DNA of 47,480 nt from contig DXCZ01000079.1 in NCBI GenBank assembly GCA_019115765.1, positions 1-47,480 of the forward strand, in the 5' to 3' direction. Below, piece after piece: positions 27,423 through 38,020 of this stretch. This DNA is from Candidatus Mediterraneibacter stercoripullorum. Lineage in GTDB: Bacteria > Bacillota > Clostridia > Lachnospirales > Lachnospiraceae. The stretch's first letter is position 1; each line of letters opens with the position of its first letter. The notes beneath the pieces are model-generated. The model ran no database searches, was not told the origin of the DNA, and worked only from the letters and a program-made list of their open reading frames with translations. A program made the position numbers and the translations under genes.

Positions 27423-27854
27423 ATGAATTATTCACTGGATACGCTTCTGTACGGGATGCAGTTCAGAAGGCTGATGGAGAAAGAGATGCATCCGATTGAA
27501 GAGAAGTACGGACTGTATAAGATAGATATACAGATCCTGTTGTATCTGAAACATTCTGGAGAACACAATACATCGAAGGATATCATGCAGATGAACATGT
27601 TTACCCGGGGACATATTTCTCAGTCATTAAGCAGGCTGCAGAAGAAGGGATACGTCAGGATGGAGCAGGATCTGGAAGACAGAAGATGTACGCACAACTA
27701 CCTGACGGAAGATGCGGTCAGCGTGATCAGGAAGATTGAGAAGATTTCGAAAAAGATCAAGGCTATTGTCCTGGAAGGGGTGACGGAGGAAGAGCAGAAG
27801 ACGCTGGCCTCTGTTGCGCAGAAGATGACCAATAATATTGAAAAAGTTTTATGA
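27423..27854 (+). CDS. MarR-family regulator (first)
   Basis: 143 residues with the MarR winged helix: QILLYLKHSGEHNTSKDIMQMNMFTRGHISQSLSRLQKKGYVRMEQDLEDRRCTHNYLTEDA, including the DxR wing motif (LEDRR). The N- and C-terminal helices would form the dimer. The ATG lies behind AGAGAGGTAAG. It probably binds the paired sites at 27374 and 27910, controlling itself and the flavodoxin-like gene downstream. The ligand is unknown; this type often senses phenolic compounds or oxidants, and one cysteine (CTH) lies in the wing. Confidence 0.9.
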   Translation: MNYSLDTLLYGMQFRRLMEKEMHPIEEKYGLYKIDIQILLYLKHSGEHNTSKDIMQMNMFTRGHISQSLSRLQKKGYVRMEQDLEDRRCTHNYLTEDAVSVIRKIEKISKKIKAIVLEGVTEEEQKTLASVAQKMTNNIEKVL

Positions 27855-27957: not shown

Positions 27958-28497
27958 ATGATCAACATGGAGAAATTAATTATTTTTTATGATGACACAA
28001 AGGCAAGCTGCTGCAGATGTGTAAACAGATTTGAACAGCGGGAGAATGTAGAATGCAGAAAAATGTCTGACTATAAGGACAAGTCTCTTATTTTCGCTTC
28101 CGGTGCCAGGCTGGGACTGGTTTTCGAGAGTGAAAACGGGAAAGTGCCTTTCGTGGTTTCTCATATTATCTGGAGAGTGGTAGCAGATAAGAACAGTGAG
28201 CATATGATCCTGGTGACGGGAGGAAGACGGGAATTCAGCACGGTCAGGACTGCAAGAGAAGATATGGAAAAACGTGGGTACCATGTGCGGAATATTTACA
28301 GCAGATATCTGTTGGAGAAGCACAGGATAAAAGAAGAGGATGCAGTTGACTGGATCATGAACGACCTTGAAACTGGTCAGGTGCGTGACAGGATAGAAGA
28401 CAAATATAAAAATATGTCAAGAAGGGAGCTGCGAAAGGAACTACGCGGTGAATTCAGGGCATACAGGAAATATCAAAGGGATCGGCTGAAGGGCTGA
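27958..28497 (+). CDS. Degenerate flavodoxin-like protein
   Basis: 179 residues. The layout KLIIFYDDTKASC...KSLIFASGARLGLVFESENGKVPFVVSHII...HMILVTGGRRE follows the flavodoxin fold as in the EFR1 (flavodoxin plus ferredoxin) proteins. However, the FMN phosphate loop (usually TGNT/S) is replaced by DDTKASCCRC and no ferredoxin cysteines follow. The C-terminal 60 residues are helical and basic. It may not bind FMN; function unknown. Start 27958 or the ATG at 27967; the AAAGG site fits either poorly. It sits under a MarR-type site with the marR gene directly upstream. Confidence 0.6.
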   Translation: MINMEKLIIFYDDTKASCCRCVNRFEQRENVECRKMSDYKDKSLIFASGARLGLVFESENGKVPFVVSHIIWRVVADKNSEHMILVTGGRREFSTVRTAREDMEKRGYHVRNIYSRYLLEKHRIKEEDAVDWIMNDLETGQVRDRIEDKYKNMSRRELRKELRGEFRAYRKYQRDRLKG

Positions 28498-29237: not shown

Positions 29238-29283
29238 GGTACCTTGACAAATCTGAAATGATGCGATATATTATCAAGGTACC
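29238..29283 (+). promoter_or_regulatory. GGTACC dual-operator promoter of the Cys/His-rich gene
   Basis: GGTACC (29238-29243) abuts -35 TTGACA (29244-29249); after a 17-bp spacer comes -10 TATATT (29267-29272); a second GGTACC is at 29278-29283. The arms GGTACCTTGA and TCAAGGTACC are perfect inverted repeats, and each GGTACC is itself the core of an AAGGTACCTT-like palindrome. The two start positions are 40 bp apart, exactly as at 33840-33885. Confidence 0.85.
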
Positions 29284-29314
29284 TAATGAATGACTCGGAA
29301 AAGGAGAAAATATT

Positions 29315-29689
29315 ATGTCAGATATGAATTATTGTAATCAGTGTGAAAACAGATGTCCTGTGACCGATCTGAAATGCGGAAGAGGAAGGAGATACTTTTC
29401 GGAAATGCAGGAAGAGAAGCAAGGCCGCCATGGTCATGAAGGAGAACATGAACACCGAGGCCGGCGGCATGAACATGGCCGTGGGCGGGAAATGTCTCCG
29501 GATATGAGACGGGTTCCCGACGGAGATGATCTGTACGCTTTGCTTCGGGCATGCGGACACCATCTCCATCACAATTTCCAGGGGCAACGTAGCATGGAAG
29601 AAGAAAATGCGTTGTTCAATGTCCTGGATGAATCAGAAAAGGAAAAACTTCAGGAATTACTGAAAAAGCTGGTAAACAGCTGGAAATAA
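29315..29689 (+). CDS. Small Cys4/His-rich protein with MarR-like dimerisation helices
   Basis: 124 residues. The N-terminus is a possible metal site CNQCENRCPVTDLKCGRG (four cysteines), then a His/Arg/Glu-rich linker (HGHEGEHEHRGRRHEHGRG), then two helical segments. The first (DDLYALLRACGHHLHHNF) and last (LFNVLDESEKEKLQELLKKLVNSWK) resemble helix 1 and the C-terminal helices of the MarR at 33915, whose tail reads FSCLTAEEKEELLRLLEKINEDW. The winged helix between them is missing. Together with the shared operator this suggests a partner or antagonist of that MarR. Function is unproven. The ATG follows AAAGGAGAAAATATT. Confidence 0.75.
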   Translation: MSDMNYCNQCENRCPVTDLKCGRGRRYFSEMQEEKQGRHGHEGEHEHRGRRHEHGRGREMSPDMRRVPDGDDLYALLRACGHHLHHNFQGQRSMEEENALFNVLDESEKEKLQELLKKLVNSWK

Positions 29690-29742
29690 TGCGGCGAAAG
29701 AAACATAACAGAAAGCACATAGCAGACAAAGCATAGAAGAAG

Positions 29743-29787
29743 GAACCCCGGCAGCTTCCGTATTGGGTAATTGCCCGGGGTTCTTTT
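29743..29787 (+). terminator. Terminator of the Cys/His-rich gene
   Basis: GAACCCCGG (29743-29751) pairs with CCGGGGTTC (29775-29783), followed by TTTT and further T-rich sequence. It lies between this gene and convergent ogt. Confidence 0.8.
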
Positions 29788-29790
29788 GCC

Positions 29791-30282
29791 TTATTTTTCT
29801 GATTCCAGCTCCAGCAGCATCTTCTTTCTGTCGATTCCTCCGGCGTATCCGGTCAGGCTGCCGTCTGCGCCCAGGATCCGGTGGCAGGGAACGATGATGG
29901 AGATACGGTTATGTCCCACGGCGCTGCCGACTGCCCGCGGGGAGGTTTTATGCCCGTGTTTTTTCGCGAACTGTTCTGCAAGCTCTCCATAAGTTTTTGT
30001 TTCACCGTATGGGATTGAGCACAGGAGTTCCCATACCTTATTTTGAAAATCCGTTCCCGTAAAATGAAGAGGAACAGAGAAATCCGGATTTTTCCCGGAA
30101 AAATAAGTATCCAACCAGTCTTTTGCCTGTTTTAAAACAGACGTTTCCTTTTCTTCGTGTTCTGCCTCCAGTCCGGCGGCGAAATATTTCTGCCCTTCAA
30201 ACCACAGGCCGGTCAGTCCGGTCTGGTCCGCGGCAAGGAGTATGTCTCCGCAGGGAGAATGAAATCGGCTTATATACTGCAT
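29791..30282 (-). CDS. ogt: Methylated-DNA-protein cysteine methyltransferase
   Basis: Suicide repair protein that takes the alkyl group from O6-methylguanine. 163 residues, Ogt-type without an Ada regulatory domain. The active site IIVPCHRILG holds acceptor C133; TDFQNKVWELLCSIPYGETKTYGELA is the DNA-binding helix-turn-helix part, and SPRAVGSAVGHNRIS carries the arginine finger and asparagine hinge. ATG 30282 follows GGGAGGGATCCAT. An 18-bp tandem repeat (30311-30346) lies in its upstream region. Confidence 0.96.
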   Translation of the reverse strand: MQYISRFHSPCGDILLAADQTGLTGLWFEGQKYFAAGLEAEHEEKETSVLKQAKDWLDTYFSGKNPDFSVPLHFTGTDFQNKVWELLCSIPYGETKTYGELAEQFAKKHGHKTSPRAVGSAVGHNRISIIVPCHRILGADGSLTGYAGGIDRKKMLLELESEK

Positions 30283-30310
30283 ATGGATCCCTCCCGAGTA
30301 TTATTTATTA

Positions 30311-30346
30311 TGTGATCATCTTATTGCATGTGGTCATCTTATTGCA
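30311..30346 (-). repeat. 18-bp direct repeat upstream of ogt
   Basis: TGTGATCATCTTATTGCA (30311-30328) is followed at once by TGTGGTCATCTTATTGCA, one mismatch. Its position 30-65 bp before ogt suggests a regulatory role or a local duplication. Confidence 0.6.
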
Positions 30347-30389
30347 TAAGGCGCAAAAGCAAAAGTATATGCTGCCATTGCTATGACTA

Positions 30390-31310
30390 TTACCGTATAG
30401 CATCAGAGGCATCGGAGTTTTCCGGAGCCAGGGAATCTTTCAATACCTCCAGAAACTTCCCGGCAGGTTTTGAAAATACCTGATATTTCTTCCAGATCAT
30501 GCTCATTTTGTTTTCCAGCCCGGGGTTCAGCGGGCGGAAACACAGGCTGCTGTCTCCTGATGTATTTATGATCTTGTCGAGACATACTGCATAGCCCAGC
30601 CCTTCATCCACAAGCAGAGAGGCATTGAAGATCAGGTTATATGTGGCGGCGATGTTCAGCTCGGCAGGCTCCTTTCCGATCCATTGGGTCAGTGTACCGC
30701 CTTCGGATTCCTGCTGGGAGAGGATAAGGGGAACATCGTACAGATCCTGCGGGGAGATACTGCTTTTAGCTGCCAGCGGGGAATCTCTGCGCATCAGGAC
30801 GCCCCAGGTATCCCGGCAGGGCAGTTCAAGGGCATTGTATCTGGTCAGGTCCACATTCCCGAATACGATACCAAAATCAATAAGACCCTTGTCCAGATAC
30901 TCAAAAACAAAAGAAGCATTACCGCTGGAAATGTGGTAATGGATACCGGGATGCTGCTCCTGCAGCAGCCCCGCGGCTCTCGCGATCAGCCGCACGCCGT
31001 CTGTTTCTCCGGTTCCGATATATACATCTCCCACGATGACGTCATCTGTCATCTTTATTTCATTTTCCGCTTTGCGGACCAGATCCATGATCTCCTCCGC
31101 CCGTTTTCTCAGGATCATGCCTTCTTCTGTAAGCGTGACCTTCCGCGATCCCTTTGTGCCGCGGATGAAAAGCTGCTTGCCCAGTTCCTCTTCCAGATTC
31201 TTGATCTGAGTAGAGAGCGTGGGCTGAGAGAGATGAAGAGATTCTGCCGCATGTACGATGCTCTGCTCTCTGGCGATGGCGAGAAAATAGTTAAGAACGC
31301 GTAATTCCAT
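30390..31310 (-). CDS. LysR-family regulator
   Basis: 306 residues: N-terminal LysR winged helix (ELRVLNYFLAIAREQSIVHAAESLHLSQPTLSTQIKNLEEELGKQLFIR) and a periplasmic-binding-protein-like effector domain from about residue 90 (VYIGTGETDGVRLIARAAGLLQEQHPGIHYHI). ATG 31310 follows CCGGAGGAACCTGAT. It lies downstream of the MFS gene on the same strand, about 110 bp apart with an imperfect hairpin (CAGACCGG/CCGGTCTG) between. Control of the MFS gene is possible, although LysR genes are more often divergent from their targets. Confidence 0.92.
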   Translation of the reverse strand: MELRVLNYFLAIAREQSIVHAAESLHLSQPTLSTQIKNLEEELGKQLFIRGTKGSRKVTLTEEGMILRKRAEEIMDLVRKAENEIKMTDDVIVGDVYIGTGETDGVRLIARAAGLLQEQHPGIHYHISSGNASFVFEYLDKGLIDFGIVFGNVDLTRYNALELPCRDTWGVLMRRDSPLAAKSSISPQDLYDVPLILSQQESEGGTLTQWIGKEPAELNIAATYNLIFNASLLVDEGLGYAVCLDKIINTSGDSSLCFRPLNPGLENKMSMIWKKYQVFSKPAGKFLEVLKDSLAPENSDASDAIR

Positions 31311-31422
31311 ATCAGGTTCCTCCGGAGTGAAAATACAGTGTGGATATTAGACCGGCTGTGTTCTTCGGCCTGAAAAGCCTGTCGGGAAACCGGTCTGCCT
31401 GTAAATAACTATAACATGTTTT

Positions 31423-32604
31423 TTACATGACCGGTGGATTTTTTTTCGGCAGGGTTCTCTTTACCTGCCGGGTCATGAGTATCATCAGCACATAGAATAC
31501 GAGCAGATAGAAGGGAAATATCCCGGGACTTATAAACTGTCCGATCAGTCCGAAGACAGCCGGTATGAGCATGATCCCCACATAGGATGCAGCCATCTGG
31601 ATCCCGATCACTGACTGAGAAACATCTGCGCCGAAATTTTCCGGAGTCAGATAATTAAAATTCGGGAACAGCGGGCCGTTCCCCAGACCTACAAGAAACA
31701 GTCCTGCAGCTGAGATATAGGGTGACAGCGGAAGCAGCAGGATGACGACAGCCGCTCCCAGAACCAGCTGTCCGATGCGGATGATCTGCCAGCTGTGGAG
31801 TCTGGAGGCAAGGAGGCCGGAGATAAAGCGGCCCAGAGCCATTCCGATATAGTAAAACATGACCATGCCGGCAGCCTGATCCGCAGCCAGATGCTTGTAC
31901 TCTACAAGAAATGTGCTTCCCCAGTTTCCGCATGTATACTCTATGCCGCAGGAAAGGATGAACAGAGTGCACATCCCTTTTACACCGGGGATGCGGATCA
32001 CTTCAGGAAGAGACAGGGATCTGCTGCGGCGGGAATGAGATCCGGATTCTTTTCCATGTGCTCTGCTCCACAGAGGCAGTGTGAACAGGACGAGCAGTGC
32101 GATCGCCAGCTGTATCATGAACGCGATCCTGTATCCGCCCCGCCATCCCGCAGGTCCGCTGATGACAAGGGATAACACATACGGGCTGAGGGATACGCCG
32201 ACTCCGTAAAAGCAATGGAGGAAGCTCATGTGGACAGCAGAATAATGGAGCGCCACATAGTTATTTAATGCTGTGTCAACAGCGCCTGCGCCAAGCCCCA
32301 GAGGAACCGCACACAGGCACAGGGCGGCCAGACTGCCGGAACAGGAGAAGCCCAGCAGGGCCAATGCAGTCAGCCCGGTGCTGAAGGCAGTTACTTTACC
32401 GGTGCCGAACCGGGAAATGACCCTGGAGCTGAGCAGGCTGGAGATGATCGTACCGCAGGGGATGATCACCGTCACAAAACTGCCGCAGGAGATCGGAAGA
32501 GAAAATTCTGTATAAATGGCAGGCCATGCCGTCCCAAAAAGGGAATCCGGTATGCCGAGACCGATAAACGCAATATAGATAATAACAAGCAGCAGAGACG
32601 CCAT
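31423..32604 (-). CDS. Major facilitator superfamily transporter
   Basis: 393 residues, 12 predicted membrane segments. The pattern (IGLGIPDSLFGTAWPAIYTEFSLP, RFGTGKVTAFSTGLTALALLGFS, GLGAGAVDTALNNYVALHYSAVHMSFLHCFYGVG) is that of the FucP/YbjJ-like MFS branch often annotated as sugar or unknown-substrate transporters. Substrate unknown. The start at MASLLLV was chosen because GGAGG lies 10 bases upstream; the longer frame is hydrophilic. A -10 TATAAT (32637-32642, minus) lies upstream with a poor -35. Confidence 0.88.
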   Translation of the reverse strand: MASLLLVIIYIAFIGLGIPDSLFGTAWPAIYTEFSLPISCGSFVTVIIPCGTIISSLLSSRVISRFGTGKVTAFSTGLTALALLGFSCSGSLAALCLCAVPLGLGAGAVDTALNNYVALHYSAVHMSFLHCFYGVGVSLSPYVLSLVISGPAGWRGGYRIAFMIQLAIALLVLFTLPLWSRAHGKESGSHSRRSRSLSLPEVIRIPGVKGMCTLFILSCGIEYTCGNWGSTFLVEYKHLAADQAAGMVMFYYIGMALGRFISGLLASRLHSWQIIRIGQLVLGAAVVILLLPLSPYISAAGLFLVGLGNGPLFPNFNYLTPENFGADVSQSVIGIQMAASYVGIMLIPAVFGLIGQFISPGIFPFYLLVFYVLMILMTRQVKRTLPKKNPPVM

Positions 32605-32885
32605 ATCTGAATATCCTCCTTTTTCACAGTAGACCAATTATAACAGATATTTGGAATTGAATGAATATATTACAAAAATGATTTAATAAACGTGAGAGGA
32701 AGGAAAATAGAAATTTCTCTGTCCCGATTAAAAAATAAACAAAATAGAAACAATTTTGTGGTATAGTCATCAAGTTAAAGACCGTCCGCAGACAGCGGGA
32801 TATTAAATTTGCAGCGCTTTTTGTAATAGATATGTAATATATCCGGGTAATTTGTCAGTATGAACTACAGAAAGGGGAAACCAAA

Positions 32886-33878
32886 ATGGGGAAAGATCCT
32901 GCCGAGACAGGAAAGCAAAGGAAAAAGAGAAAAAAGGCCGATTCAGAGAACAGGCCGTCTGTCCTGAAGGGACTGATATCAAGGATACTGGGCTGGAACC
33001 GGTGGGCTGTGTATCTGGGAACTGTCGCAGCGGCGGCTCTGTCCATTGTTCATGCGCAGATGGAAATCCTGCCTTATGCCGCCGGGATAGCGGTTTACAT
33101 AGCAGCGGCTCTTTTGCTGACCTTATCCTGTATACGTATCGGACAGGATCTGCGCAGTGGAATCGTTGATGAGATCCTGACAGTTCTGAAAAAGAATCCA
33201 TTCGGACAGAGATTTTTTGATGATTACGGTTTCCGCACCGTTCTGACCACGATGCCGTCTTTTGTGATAAATGTTGCCTATACGGTGTACAATGGAGTCA
33301 TTGGTGTTATGAATCAGTCCGCCTGGTTTATCACCATGGCTGTCTACTACAGTCTGCTTGGAGTCATGCGCTATCGGGCGGTCAGTACGGAGAGGAAGAA
33401 TTCCAGGCTGAAAGACAAGGAACTGATCAGGAGGCGGGAACTGTCGGTGATCCGGATCGACGGTATCCTTCTTATCATACTGAACCTGGCACTCAGCGGC
33501 GTAGTCCTGCTGACCATAGCGAAAGGGACTGCCAGGACATATACGGAGATCTTGGTCATCTCGATAGCGGCTTATACCTTCTATAAGATAATAACTGCAG
33601 TGATCAACATGATAAAAGTCCGCAAAATGCAGTCCCCCATACTGATCACGATCCGGAATATCGGTGTGGCGGATGCGCTTGTATCTGTGCTGACACTTCA
33701 GTCAACTATGCTTGCTTCCTTTCAGGACAGAGGAAATATAGACGCAAACCGGATGAATGCCATTACAGGGCTGGCGGTCTGTGTCCTGATCACAGTGCTG
33801 GGAATTAGCATGATCTGTTACGGCAGAGGAAAATCGAAAGGTACCTTGACAAAAATGTCTCAAAAGAATAAAATGTGA
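32886..33878 (+). CDS. Integral membrane protein of unknown function
   Basis: 330 residues. A basic N-terminal tail (GKQRKKRKKADSENRPS) precedes about eight hydrophobic segments. The segment FDDYGFRTVLTTMPSFVINVAYTVYNGVIG and the ERKNSRLKDKELIRRRELSV cytoplasmic loop look conserved but belong to no characterised family I can name. ATG follows GAAAGGGGAAACCAAA. Its last 13 codons (from KGTLTK) coincide with the promoter and first operator of the next gene, so marR can be expressed independently of it. The 281-bp region upstream is AT-rich with no convincing promoter. Confidence 0.8.
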   Translation: MGKDPAETGKQRKKRKKADSENRPSVLKGLISRILGWNRWAVYLGTVAAAALSIVHAQMEILPYAAGIAVYIAAALLLTLSCIRIGQDLRSGIVDEILTVLKKNPFGQRFFDDYGFRTVLTTMPSFVINVAYTVYNGVIGVMNQSAWFITMAVYYSLLGVMRYRAVSTERKNSRLKDKELIRRRELSVIRIDGILLIILNLALSGVVLLTIAKGTARTYTEILVISIAAYTFYKIITAVINMIKVRKMQSPILITIRNIGVADALVSVLTLQSTMLASFQDRGNIDANRMNAITGLAVCVLITVLGISMICYGRGKSKGTLTKMSQKNKM

Positions 33879-33885
33879 AGGTACC
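33840..33885 (+). promoter_or_regulatory. GGTACC dual-operator promoter of the marR-ABC operon
   Basis: GGTACC (33840-33845), -35 TTGACA (33846-33851), 17-bp spacer, -10 TAAAAT (33869-33874), second GGTACC (33880-33885). Geometry is identical to 29238-29283, with 40 bp between the two sites. Flanks extend the cores to AAGGTACCTT and AAGGTACC. It overlaps the 3' end of the upstream membrane protein gene. Confidence 0.88.
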
Positions 33886-33914: not shown

Positions 33915-34475
33915 ATGAGAGATCATAAATCAGATAAAGCAGAACATGAGCATCGAATGCATGATCTGGCTCAGATGGATGAGGATACCAGGATGATCAT
34001 TAATCTGCGGGATATCAGCCATGTTATGCGTGGCTTATATGAGGGGAAAGGAAGCCAGAAAGGAATTCTGATCATGTTAAGAGAGAGCGGTCCGGTTACT
34101 CAGCGTGAACTGACGGAGCGGCTGGGAATCCAGCCCGGTTCTGTCAGCGAAGTGATCGGAAAGCTGGAACATGCCGGCCTGATCCTGCGGACTCCCAGTG
34201 AATCAGACCGCAGGACCATGGATATCAGCCTTACAGAAGAGGGAGCCCGGCAGGCGGAAGAAGCGGCGGAGAACCGGAGACAGAGACATGTGGATATGTT
34301 TTCATGTCTTACGGCTGAGGAGAAGGAAGAGCTGCTGAGACTGCTGGAGAAGATCAATGAAGACTGGAGGCAGCGTTATCCATCAGCGGGAAAACACGGC
34401 CACGGGCGATGCCGGGGTGAGAAAAAGGGAAGGCATGGCGGCGGTCATATGAAACATGTGAAAAGCGGGGAATGA
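33915..34475 (+). CDS. MarR-family regulator (second) with His-rich tail
   Basis: 186 residues. The winged helix is complete (KGILIMLRESGPVTQRELTERLGIQPGSVSEVIGKLEHAGLILRTPSESDRRTMDISLTEEG). Residues before it (HKSDKAEHEHRMHD) and the tail (HGHGRCRGEKKGRHGGGHMKHVKS) are rich in His with one Cys, so metal binding is conceivable. ATG at 33915 follows GGGAGGAGCGTCA. It is the first gene of an operon with the ABC exporter (4-bp gap) and is the best candidate to bind the paired GGTACC sites at its own promoter and at 29238. Confidence 0.92.
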   Translation: MRDHKSDKAEHEHRMHDLAQMDEDTRMIINLRDISHVMRGLYEGKGSQKGILIMLRESGPVTQRELTERLGIQPGSVSEVIGKLEHAGLILRTPSESDRRTMDISLTEEGARQAEEAAENRRQRHVDMFSCLTAEEKEELLRLLEKINEDWRQRYPSAGKHGHGRCRGEKKGRHGGGHMKHVKSGE

Positions 34476-34479
34476 CGGT

Positions 34480-36219
34480 ATGTGGAAATATATCAGAAAG
34501 TATATAGTATTTGCCGTGATCGCCGCGTTATTCATGGTTGGTGAGGTTATGATGGACCTGCTCCAGCCCAGTCTGATGAACCGGATCGTGGATGAAGGCG
34601 TGCTGGGACTTGGCAGCGGCGGCACGGGAAATCTCCGCGTTATCTGGACACTGGGACTGGAGATGATCGCCCTCGTGCTGTTCGGAGGCTTCTGCGGTTC
34701 TATGAACAATGTCTTTGTGCATATGTCATCCCAGAATATCGGAAATGACATGAGAAAGGACTGTTTCCGCAATATCATGACATTTTCCTTTCAGCAGATT
34801 GACCGGTTCAGCACAGGCTCTCTGATAACGAGAGTGACGAATGACATTACCCAGGTCCAGACATTTGTGTCGCTCTTTGTACGCGGGCTGATCCGGACCT
34901 CTCTTCTGACGTTTGGAAGTATATTTTTCATGTTCCGGCTGGACTGGACATTCGGTCTGATCGTGCTGTGTGCATTCCCATTTCTGGTCGGATGTCTTGT
35001 ATTCTGTATTGTAAAGGCGAATCCTCTTTTTACAAAGCTGCAGGCACGGCTGGATGAAGTGAACGGGATTATGCAGGAGGACGTCTCGGGAATCCGGATC
35101 ATCAAGGCATGTGTGCGGGAAGTCTATGAGAAGTTCCGGTTTTCAAAGAAGAATGACGAATTAATTAAAACACAGCTCCGTGTTCTGGTCATATTTGCTT
35201 TTATGAACCCTGCTGTCAATGCAATGATGTACATAGTTGTAGCTGTCATTTTGCTGACCGGATCGTTTGAAGTGGGCGGAGGAGTGACTACGCCGGGAAC
35301 GATCATGGCTGCGATCACATATACAACGCAGCTGCTCAACGGTATCCTGATGCTGACTATGATCTTCCAGAATATATCCAGAGGACTTGTATCCTGGAGA
35401 AGGATAAAGGAAGTACTTGATACGGAGCCTGAACTTAAAGACGGGCCGTTTGACGGAGAGACGGAGCTGCGCGGAGAAATCGAATTCAGAGATGTCTCTT
35501 TTGCATATCCGGGAAGCGACAAGATGATACTGGAACATGTGAGCCTGTCCATACACCGGGGAGAAACGGTCGCGGTTATGGGAGCAACCGGATGTGGAAA
35601 GAGTACGCTGGTAAATCTGATCCCCCGGTTTTACGATGTTACGTCAGGCGCAGTCCTTGTAGATGGAGTGGATGTGAGAGAATACAGGCAGGAAGCACTT
35701 CGCGGGAAGATCGGAACTGCACTGCAGAAAAGCGAGTTGTTCAGTCAGACGATAGCAGAAAATATTTCCTGGGGAAAACCGGATGCCACGGAGACAGAGA
35801 TAAGAGACGCAGCTTCTGCTGCCAAGGCGGATGATTTCATTTCATCGGCGCAGAACGGATACGGGACGGTCGTCGCCGAGCGCGGCATGAGTCTGTCCGG
35901 CGGACAGAAACAGAGGATATCGATCGCGAGGACCATAATAAAAGGCGCAGAGATACTGATCTTTGATGACTCCACCAGTGCTCTTGATCTGAAGACAGAG
36001 GCGGATCTGCACCAGGCTCTGAAAAAAGTAAATCCTGAGAGCACGAAGATCATTATTGCCCAGCGGATCGCTTCCGCGCGGAGAGCGGACCGGATCATCG
36101 TGCTGAACAACGGATATGTTGACGACTGCGGAACCCATGAGGAGCTGTTGGAAAGATGCAGCACCTACCGGGATATTTATGATTCGCAGATGGGAGAGGA
36201 GGGTGAGAAAGTTGGCTGA
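34480..36219 (+). CDS. Heterodimeric ABC exporter, subunit with degenerate ATP site
   Basis: 579 residues: six membrane segments, then an ATPase domain. Walker A GATGCGKST (368-376) and signature LSGGQ (472) are intact. The catalytic glutamate after Walker B is aspartate (IFDDSTSALD, D497), and the H-loop histidine is glutamine (IIIAQRI, Q528). This is the pattern of the non-catalytic-site partner in BmrCD/LmrCD/TM287-288-type exporters. It works with the next gene. Exports drugs, peptides or lipids; substrate unknown. ATG follows AGCGGGGAATGACGGT. Confidence 0.93.
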   Translation: MWKYIRKYIVFAVIAALFMVGEVMMDLLQPSLMNRIVDEGVLGLGSGGTGNLRVIWTLGLEMIALVLFGGFCGSMNNVFVHMSSQNIGNDMRKDCFRNIMTFSFQQIDRFSTGSLITRVTNDITQVQTFVSLFVRGLIRTSLLTFGSIFFMFRLDWTFGLIVLCAFPFLVGCLVFCIVKANPLFTKLQARLDEVNGIMQEDVSGIRIIKACVREVYEKFRFSKKNDELIKTQLRVLVIFAFMNPAVNAMMYIVVAVILLTGSFEVGGGVTTPGTIMAAITYTTQLLNGILMLTMIFQNISRGLVSWRRIKEVLDTEPELKDGPFDGETELRGEIEFRDVSFAYPGSDKMILEHVSLSIHRGETVAVMGATGCGKSTLVNLIPRFYDVTSGAVLVDGVDVREYRQEALRGKIGTALQKSELFSQTIAENISWGKPDATETEIRDAASAAKADDFISSAQNGYGTVVAERGMSLSGGQKQRISIARTIIKGAEILIFDDSTSALDLKTEADLHQALKKVNPESTKIIIAQRIASARRADRIIVLNNGYVDDCGTHEELLERCSTYRDIYDSQMGEEGEKVG

Positions 36220-38020
36220 CGCTAAACTGGAAAACAGAAACATTCCCGGGATGAACAGACGGGAGAGATTTGCGGAAGCAGAGCATGCAGAAAACGCAGG
36301 CGCCGCCTTAAGACGGATCATCCGATACTTTTTTCACGAAAAGCTTCTGGTGCTGAGTATGTTTCTGACTGTCCTGTTCGGGACATTCTGCGGGATCTAT
36401 GCGCCCAGTGTCCAGAGTGACGCGATCGACATCATCGCCGGGAGTGTGCAGGGAAATCTGGGAAGAACCCTGATCATTATGCTGGCTGCATATCTGCTGT
36501 ACAGCGGCAGTCAGCTGCTGCAGGGGCTGTTAAGTGCGAGACTCAGCCAGTCCATTGTAAAAAAGATGCGGGAAGAACTGTTTGCCAAGATCGTTGATGT
36601 GCCGGTACGCTATCTGGATACTCACTCCCACGGGGACGTCATGAGCCGGATGACAAATGATATTGAGAATATATCTACAACGGTGTCCCAGTCGCTGCCC
36701 TCTCTTTTCTCCGGAGTTCTGACGATCATTGGTACTGCGGCAGTTATGATCTGGTATTGCTGGGAGCTTGCACTGCTCAGTCTTGTGACGGTATTTCTGA
36801 CTGTGCTGGCAACGAAGATCCTGTCCAGAAGTATCCGGACCTTTTCGAGGAAAAGGCAGATGCTGCTGGGACAGCTGAACGGAACTGTAGAAGAGATGGT
36901 ATCCGGTTACCGTACAGTATCGGCATACAATCATCAGGAGATCACAACGGCAGAGTTCTGTGAAACGGCAGATTCTCTGACCAGAGCAGGAATCAGAACG
37001 GATATTCTGAGCGGCATCATGGGTCCGATCATGAACTGTATCGGCAATATCGGATTTGTGATCATTGCGGCGTTTGGAGGTTATTTTTCTCTGAGCGGGC
37101 TCATATCAGTGGGAGTTATCTCGGCGTTTATCGTATATGCCAGACAGTTCAGCCGTCCGATCAATGAGATCGCGCAGGTATACGGTCAGCTGCAGACAGC
37201 TGTCGCAGGTGCAGAGCGTGTATTTGCGGTACTGGATGAAGCTGATGAGGATAAGAGCGGGGACGAGCTGGCGGAAGAAAAGTCAGCAGATATTATTTTC
37301 CGAAATGTAGGGTTCTCTTATGTTCCGGATCATCCGGTCATCCGGGACTTCAGCCTGACTGTGCCGTCTGGAAAAAAGGTAGCTCTCGTGGGGGCTACGG
37401 GAAGCGGAAAGACCACAATTGTAAATCTTCTCATGAGATTCTACGATATTGACAGCGGCAGCATCTGCATCAATCAGCAGGATATAAAGGATATCTCGCG
37501 GGACAGCCTGCGGAAGAATGTGGCCATCGTACTGCAGGATACGGTCCTCTTTACAGATACGATACGAAATAATCTGAAATATGGAAATGCAGATGCCACA
37601 GAAGAAGAGATAGAAAAAGCGGTGAAGATGAGCCGGTGCGGGGATATGCTCCGCAGTCTTCCGGAAGGACTTGATACAGTGCTTACCGGATCAGGGGAGA
37701 ATATCAGTCAGGGACAGAGACAGCTGCTGGCGATCGCCCGGGCATTTGTGGCAGATCCGAAGATCCTGATCCTGGATGAGGCTACATCCAATGTGGATAC
37801 GAGGACAGAGAAGGCCATCCAGGACGCCATGCAGATGATCATGAAGAACCGCACCAGTATTGTGATCGCTCACCGTCTGTCTACCATACGGGATTCGGAT
37901 GTGATCGTGGTCATGGATCATGGAAGGATCGTTGAAAGCGGCAGCCACAGTGAGCTGCTGGAACGGAAAGGAAAGTACTATGAACTGTACATGACCCAGT
38001 ACGCGGGATTTGCCACATAA
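36212..38020 (+). CDS. Heterodimeric ABC exporter, catalytic subunit
   Basis: 602 residues: a hydrophilic N-terminal extension of about 40 residues, six membrane segments, and a canonical ATPase domain: Walker A GATGSGKTT (394-402), signature ISQGQRQ, Walker B LILDEATSNVD with catalytic E523, and H554 in IVIAHRLSTI. TTG at 36212 was chosen as start because GGAGAGGAGGG precedes it by 8 bases and it overlaps the partner's stop by 8 bases; an in-frame ATG at 36116 lies deep in the partner gene. Forms a multidrug-type exporter with the previous gene. Confidence 0.92.
   Translation: MADAKLENRNIPGMNRRERFAEAEHAENAGAALRRIIRYFFHEKLLVLSMFLTVLFGTFCGIYAPSVQSDAIDIIAGSVQGNLGRTLIIMLAAYLLYSGSQLLQGLLSARLSQSIVKKMREELFAKIVDVPVRYLDTHSHGDVMSRMTNDIENISTTVSQSLPSLFSGVLTIIGTAAVMIWYCWELALLSLVTVFLTVLATKILSRSIRTFSRKRQMLLGQLNGTVEEMVSGYRTVSAYNHQEITTAEFCETADSLTRAGIRTDILSGIMGPIMNCIGNIGFVIIAAFGGYFSLSGLISVGVISAFIVYARQFSRPINEIAQVYGQLQTAVAGAERVFAVLDEADEDKSGDELAEEKSADIIFRNVGFSYVPDHPVIRDFSLTVPSGKKVALVGATGSGKTTIVNLLMRFYDIDSGSICINQQDIKDISRDSLRKNVAIVLQDTVLFTDTIRNNLKYGNADATEEEIEKAVKMSRCGDMLRSLPEGLDTVLTGSGENISQGQRQLLAIARAFVADPKILILDEATSNVDTRTEKAIQDAMQMIMKNRTSIVIAHRLSTIRDSDVIVVMDHGRIVESGSHSELLERKGKYYELYMTQYAGFAT

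Follow-up and report, generated by a model that had tools for sequence, protein, structure and literature searches.

A MarR paralogue without winged helix shares a paired GGTACC operator with a MarR-exporter operon and is a candidate anti-repressor in Clostridia

Operons that combine marR with exporter genes are a textbook case of control by a local repressor. Small partners of transcription regulators are known from several organisms: ArmR is a peptide that lifts repression by MexR, the MarR-family repressor of an efflux pump; H-NST is a truncated H-NS that counters the full-length protein and is said to induce expression of the locus of enterocyte effacement (LEE); and in plants the LITTLE ZIPPER microProteins correspond to the dimerisation region of a transcription factor, encoded on its own as a small protein and controlled by that same factor. 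In Bacillus subtilis, the small partner SinI forms a SinI:SinR heterodimer and thereby lifts repression (PMC6123443). Among exporter systems, Streptococcus suis carries marR-abc-abc in one operon (satRAB), and SatR binds the satAB promoter region in electrophoretic mobility shift assays, two 9-bp pseudopalindromes being present in that region (PMC9241815). Here we analysed a stretch of 47,480 bp (the window) from a draft genome of Candidatus Mediterraneibacter stercoripullorum (contig DXCZ01000079.1; genome 3.2 Mb, 89% complete), in which two promoters are flanked by paired GGTACC sites: promoter 2 lies before a marR gene and an ATP-binding cassette (ABC) exporter, and promoter 1 before a small MarR homologue that lacks the winged helix-turn-helix (wHTH) domain, hereafter called headless.

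Both elements consist of a GGTACC abutting a TTGACA -35 hexamer, a 17-bp spacer, a -10 hexamer and a second GGTACC (Table 1), exactly at the coordinates given in the original prediction, which had also held that chance was an unlikely source of the arrangement. A search of the window for GGTACCTTGACA-N28-GGTACC with up to two mismatches returned four matches, namely two places on both strands, and no such pair appeared in 100 dinucleotide-preserving shuffles of the window, so a chance origin is rejected; lone GGTACC is mildly enriched in the window (9 observed vs 4.3 expected). The right-hand site reads TATCAAGGTACC or TGTGAAGGTACC, with one mismatch to the reverse complement of GGTACCTTGACA, and each promoter is thus flanked by inverted 12-bp arms. 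The draft genome contains GGTACCTTGA at four places (15 for the reversed control): three lie within the two promoters and one inside an unrelated open reading frame (ORF). The spacer sequences of the two promoters are not alike, and local duplication of one promoter was therefore set aside as their source. The 3' end of the ORF upstream runs into promoter 2.

The same element recurs in other genomes. A strict scan for GGTACCTTGACA-N24-32-AGGTACC in named genomes, which represent 84,980 species by a single genome each, returned at least 118 loci, by title mostly from Clostridia and relatives with few from other phyla; Parablautia muri (L035, L141) and Petralouisia muris (L107, L124) hold two loci each among the matches listed. 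In 100 of the 118 listed loci, the correct strand carries an ORF whose match to the MarR profile starts no more than 1 kb downstream of the site; two of these 100 operator-linked ORFs are themselves headless (L035, L138). As for the other 18 listed loci, seven end within about 220 bp of the site, three carry a related gene (L030 one for cation efflux, L076 a pair of ABC genes, L107 a Cys4 fragment that is truncated), seven belong to distant lineages or precede other genes (three on inspection, four going by the title), and in one (L132) the site was not refound on re-analysis. An ABC exporter homologue follows the MarR gene in 50 of the 81 operator-linked loci with at least 1.8 kb of downstream sequence. 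When spacings of 27-57 bp were allowed in 392 genomes of the order, 12 sites were obtained in 11 genomes (reversed control, one match), some of these genomes being also among the listed 118 loci, and a MarR-family ORF lies downstream at all 12, both window sites counted. Furthermore, a loose scan for GGTACCTTG-N24-36-GGTACC in 200 genomes of the family found a MarR homologue downstream of every site with TTGACA (9/9; seven in other genomes and two in the window, one of the latter being the promoter of the headless gene) and of the single TTGCAA site, vs none of the five sites with neither hexamer; in L016 the MarR match begins about 0.8 kb from the site, behind a long N-terminus. The paired operator is present in 2/58 genomes of the genus, and the site in the second of these is identical in sequence to that of L126, a locus from an uncultured Mediterraneibacter. 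Among the arrangements observed, in Lachnospiraceae bacterium CE91-St56 a cation-efflux gene (CDF, PF01545) stands alone behind a paired operator (L154:6503-7411, minus strand), and in Acetatifactor muris an ABC-ABC pair comes immediately after the paired operator (L155:4420-4465), without an intervening marR.

In the 100 operator-linked loci, TAnnnT lies exactly 17 bp from TTGACA in 84, vs 0-10 loci at twelve other offsets, and in those 84 the right-hand site lies 3-10 bp past the -10. A palindrome, TWAGGTACCTWA, is also visible in those bases of the 100 loci that the search did not fix. The distance between the two GGTACC sites is 38 (35 loci), 39 (6), 40 (36), 41 (8), 43 (6), 44 (2) or 45 bp (7) under the strict pattern, which itself permitted only 37-45 bp, and reaches 46 bp in the free-spacing scan. 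The fixed 40-bp spacing that had been proposed holds for the two window copies and is no rule among relatives; since the distance ranges over 38-46 bp, two dimers on one helix face or a loop of about four helical turns fail as a rule and were rejected. Occlusion, in which one dimer covers the -35 and another the start site, would be the simplest mechanism.

Regarding the protein that binds these sites, the product of the marR gene at 33915 passes the PF01047 profile with 53.9 bits (curated cut-off 24.6), and a recognition-helix motif, xxxxSxSExxxKxE, most commonly in the form IQPGSASEILSKLE, is present in 94/100 operator-linked ORFs. A search for MarR paralogues in seven genomes listed 48 matches, of which 30 loci were examined: the six top matches (five with paired sites, one with a single site) all carry the motif, vs none of the other 24 paralogues, seven of which have a GGTACC somewhere in the examined locus. 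The MarR ORF downstream of most listed operators, together with this distribution of the helix motif, lends good support to autoregulation by the MarR at 33915, as originally suggested, and gives strong comparative support, short of proof, for this protein as the owner of both site pairs. This marR gene and the two abc genes behind it follow one another on the same strand (33915-38020), as in a SatRAB-like operon; by our reading, the Walker B motif suggests a degenerate catalytic site in exporter half 1 and a canonical one in half 2. Upstream of promoter 1 lie a second MarR-family gene (27423-27854, plus strand), without a paired GGTACC site, and a small protein (27958-28497, plus strand) weakly resembling EFR1 ferredoxins.

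The gene behind promoter 1 had been described as encoding a small Cys/His-rich protein; the gene is there, while its identity had been missed. No Pfam MarR domain was detected in the 124-residue protein up to an E value of 0.1, nor was a winged helix found, and BLASTP against the window's own MarR gave a weak match. Its MarR kinship was detected with a C-terminal hidden Markov model, and in tblastn against relatives it matches both ends of the full-length Cys4-type MarR in L008. In that alignment the Cys4 motif, the His-rich linker, helix alpha1 and the C-terminal helices are in register, with a clean gap over the wHTH and 53% identity across shared columns. Judged from this alignment, the protein is a MarR homologue without the winged-helix DNA-binding domain.

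Headless MarRs were found in seven genomes including that of the window. They comprise proteins of 95 amino acids (aa) in P. muri, of 108 aa in a metagenome-assembled genome of Oscillospiraceae SUG1357 (L136), of 175 aa in Ca. Pelethocola (L151), with a His-rich stretch where the wHTH would be, and three more in genomes G847, G1066 and G303 (L233), that of G303 having 63 aa. Headless MarRs are rare. Among 391 class-level genomes there were five matches besides the window, two of them headless, and among 397 family-level genomes there were 16. Of these 16, seven are full-length MarRs and another has a degenerate winged helix; four are Cys4 fragments, including one truncated where its contig stops; G303 encodes a free-standing headless protein and G400 a fused one; and two we left unassigned (L225, L228). 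No relative was confirmed when the proteins of named genomes were scanned with the small protein, and among the titles listed from the Creative Commons-licensed text of PubMed Central none dealt with a headless MarR or with this operator. Several related forms were seen alongside. The fused case (L234:2437-3432, plus strand) is a 331-aa protein with the Cys4 motif and a headless-MarR-like C-terminus as its tail; its N-terminal part looks metallophosphoesterase-like by eye, with no Pfam match at 1e-5. Short Cys4 ORFs, some His-rich and with no MarR domain seen, occur in L219, L226, L229 and L152 (4519-4803, minus strand), the last one sitting behind a paired operator and apparently truncated. 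A Cys4 MarR-like protein at L235:3780-4340 (plus strand) has a seemingly degenerate winged helix and no SxSE motif.

The headless genes are repeatedly linked to GGTACC sites and to marR-ABC loci. GGTACC occurs in the promoter region of five of the seven (the window, P. muri L150, L136, L151 and L233), with paired sites upstream in P. muri and L151. The P. muri gene lies 10.7 kb from its operator-marR-ABC-ABC locus on the same contig. In L136 the headless gene is divergent from marR and shares its operator, with GGTACC at 1411, 1451 and 1489, and the headless promoter, GGTACC-TTGACG-N17-TATACT, makes use of the GGTACC at 1489, itself part of the 16-bp palindrome GTCAAGGTACCTTGAC. In G303 (L233) the headless gene is the first of an ABC-ABC operon that lies opposite another marR-ABC-ABC, where a lone GGTACC abuts the -35 of the divergent marR. 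G847 carries an operator-marR elsewhere in its genome. A close full-length MarR was found in five of the six headless genomes searched, and G303, outside that search, has marR in its locus; the G454 match was flagged with one in-frame TGA, and its open frame of 183 aa scores nearly as well. Across 44 aligned codons of five headless genes, nonsynonymous differences are few and synonymous ones saturated in 9/10 pairs (pN 0.24 for the window vs P. muri, with pS saturated; pN 0.25 for G847 vs G1066), and these genes look conserved by purifying selection. In a tree of headless and full-length MarRs, which rests on 56 columns, L136, G847 and G1066 group together (support 0.91), L151 falls beside the full-length MarR of Dielma fastidiosa (0.91), and the window and P. 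muri proteins fall near full-length Cys4 MarRs with weak support; the wHTH was probably lost more than once.

Taking these observations together, we propose that both elements are operator-promoter units of one repressor, the MarR at 33915, whose dimers on palindromes of the TWAGGTACCTWA type, over the -35 and the transcription start, would shut both promoters until an inducer frees them. Promoter 2 would drive marR and the heterodimeric ABC exporter and, as one promoter drives marR itself, the repressor would control itself. Promoter 1 would drive the MarR-derived protein, in which Cys4, alpha1 and the C-terminal helices are kept and the winged helix is lost; pairing with full-length MarR, it would yield complexes unable to bind DNA, so that derepression, once begun, would be deepened and held. 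The headless MarR would thus act in the manner of SinI, as an anti-repressor derived from the repressor's own family, a reading to which we assign a probability of roughly 0.5. Comparison supports the operator-MarR link, the headless architecture, co-regulation and conservation; we infer repression as such, the pairing into heterodimers, their anti-repressor effect and the nature of the inducer, which, as a guess from the Cys and His residues, may be a metal or a thiol-reactive compound. If correct, a conserved and co-regulated MarR paralogue without DNA-binding domain would be an internal anti-repressor new to the MarR family, and the response of such exporters could become switch-like or memory-like. 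In addition, the paired operator is a DNA signature that predicts the target of a MarR subfamily, here mostly from gut and rumen Clostridia, and it can reveal more regulon members such as the cation-efflux gene, the ABC pair without marR and the headless MarRs.

Three headless genes (L136, G847 and G303) stand behind a leader of about 55 nt that contains GUAA(A/G)UCC and a terminator-like hairpin. The GUAA(A/G)UCC stretch is common to all eight aligned copies, the other five of which precede genes read by eye as MATE pumps, that in L117 being short. In P. muri, a sequence-only model from the eight copies has a match ahead of a Pfam MatE gene that is transcribed divergently from marR; the model also matches in L070, L086 and L103, with two matches in some loci. 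No Rfam 15 match to the leader was obtained in L136, L176, L068, L077, L085 and L117, coverage of guanidine-IV by Rfam not being established. The guanidine-IV (mepA) riboswitch, considered as a possible identity of the leader on account of its link to MATE genes, is a MATE-associated terminator class, described with 105 nt (PMC12186494, PMC11611296) vs about 55 nt here. The model found no match in the window, so the window's headless gene seems to be without this leader. A broader and tentative extension, doubtful as it stands, is that headless MarRs, having lost the wHTH repeatedly, form a family of built-in anti-repressors of GGTACC-type MarRs, and that in some genomes the MATE-type leader RNA controls the headless gene, an RNA sensor thus switching the exporter operon through a repressor fragment.

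Several results weigh against the proposed model of regulon and anti-repressor. In the 56-column tree, the headless proteins cluster with Cys4-type MarRs (L008, L106, L027) and not with the exporter-linked type that would be their binding partner; this grouping cuts against the simplest heterodimer idea. G1066 (97% complete) has the headless gene, and no close full-length MarR was found in it; no GGTACC was found close to the headless copies in G847 and G1066; and the P. muri and G303 proteins have no Cys4 motif. AlphaFold2 monomer models of headless proteins were poor (mean predicted local distance difference test 62.3 and 63.7, predicted template modelling score 0.34 and 0.41) and uninformative on dimers. 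The loose scan matched 13/200 genomes vs, by our count, 29/200 for the reversed control, and therefore its count alone gives no enrichment, which comes from the stricter pattern and the downstream genes. Homologous loci lacking the paired sites, named beforehand as an outcome that would speak against the regulon, were encountered to some extent, as MarR homologues exist with a single GGTACC (L188 in G454, and G303) or with none in the examined stretch (L181 in G222).

In an alternative reading of the same protein, rather improbable in our view, it buffers a metal or ligand or serves as a co-sensor: Cys4, the His-rich linker and the CGHxLHH helix would bind the inducer, for instance a transition metal or a thiol-reactive compound, and homodimers would damp the response without touching MarR. 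It draws on the presence of Cys4 in 5/7 headless proteins and 24/100 operator-linked ORFs, on the His content of the latter (median 4.4 per 100 aa vs 2.0 in 17 other MarRs), on the motif [CS]xHxL[HR]H, found in 5/6 headless vs 3/92 full-length proteins, and on the lone CDF gene behind one paired operator; the two members without Cys4 argue against it, and a pure buffer would have no need to conserve both dimerisation helices. Less plausible is that the protein works independently as a homodimer, an adaptor whose MarR bundle offers a scaffold to some other partner and which only shares the exporter's operator: the G1066 gene and the Cys4 plus C-terminal module at the end of the G400 protein would fit it, and what opposes it is that headless genes of several genomes are recurrently tied to marR-ABC loci, both in position and in regulation. 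That a factor other than MarR binds the GGTACC pairs is very unlikely, given the MarR-profile ORF directly downstream in most listed loci and the helix motif held in common, with 6/100 linked ORFs without that motif, two being the headless L035 and L138, on the other side. Finally, the small ORF might be what is left of a MarR gene that suffered a deletion and is now decaying. The full match in the window genome alone among 58 of the genus and one partial match in G222 (residues 3-85, within a 248-aa frame) could point that way; next to the same architecture in open frames of several genera and the selection pattern of the five genes compared, this reading is highly improbable.

Table 1. Features of the two operator-promoter elements, the genes behind them and the leader RNA copies (window coordinates unless a locus is given).
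Feature	Position	Strand	Remarks
Left operator GGTACC, promoter 1	29238-29243	+	arm GGTACCTTGACA = 29238-29249
-35 TTGACA, promoter 1	29244-29249	+	abuts left operator
-10 TATATT, promoter 1	29267-29272	+	17-bp spacer; TAnnnT here in 84/100 relatives
Right operator GGTACC, promoter 1	29278-29283	+	arm TATCAAGGTACC = 29272-29283; covers expected transcription start
Headless MarR homologue, 124 aa	29315-29689	+	Cys4 (C-x2-C-x3-C-x6-C), His-rich linker, alpha1, C-terminal helices; no winged helix
Left operator GGTACC, promoter 2	33840-33845	+	within 3' end of preceding ORF 32886-33878
-35 TTGACA, promoter 2	33846-33851	+	abuts left operator
-10 TAAAAT, promoter 2	33869-33874	+	17-bp spacer
Right operator GGTACC, promoter 2	33880-33885	+	
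marR, full-length MarR-family protein	33915-34475	+	PF01047 E=1.7e-14; recognition helix IQPGSVSEVIGKLE; Cys/His-rich C-terminal tail
ABC exporter half 1	34480-36219	+	PF00664, PF00005; Walker B FDDS
ABC exporter half 2	36212-38020	+	PF00664, PF00005; Walker B LDEA; TTG start assumed
Leader RNA	L136:1528-1580	+	before headless MarR gene
Leader RNA	L176:2595-2649	-	before headless MarR gene
Leader RNA	L233:5462-5516	+	before headless MarR gene
Further leader RNA copies	L068, L077, L085, L117, L118, L150		

With respect to described systems, SatR-SatAB is the precedent for the type of operon and SinI-SinR that for the logic. SinI is a relative of the dimerisation part of SinR without the helix-turn-helix, and the window protein corresponds in the same way to the dimerisation part of its repressor family without the DNA-binding domain; the fold family of SinI-SinR differs from MarR, and it is not known to have a Cys4 motif. 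ArmR, unlike the window's headless protein, is not known to be a MarR homologue; H-NS is a nucleoid protein and not a local repressor, and H-NST is not known to share an operator with it; and the LITTLE ZIPPERs are eukaryotic leucine zippers. A SinI:SinR heterodimer is reported in the source cited above, whereas that of the window is postulated. The window resembles satRAB in its marR-abc-abc operon and in having two pseudopalindromes in the promoter, and differs from it in the headless MarR paralogue, of which the parts of the satRAB report drawn on here make no mention (PMC9241815).

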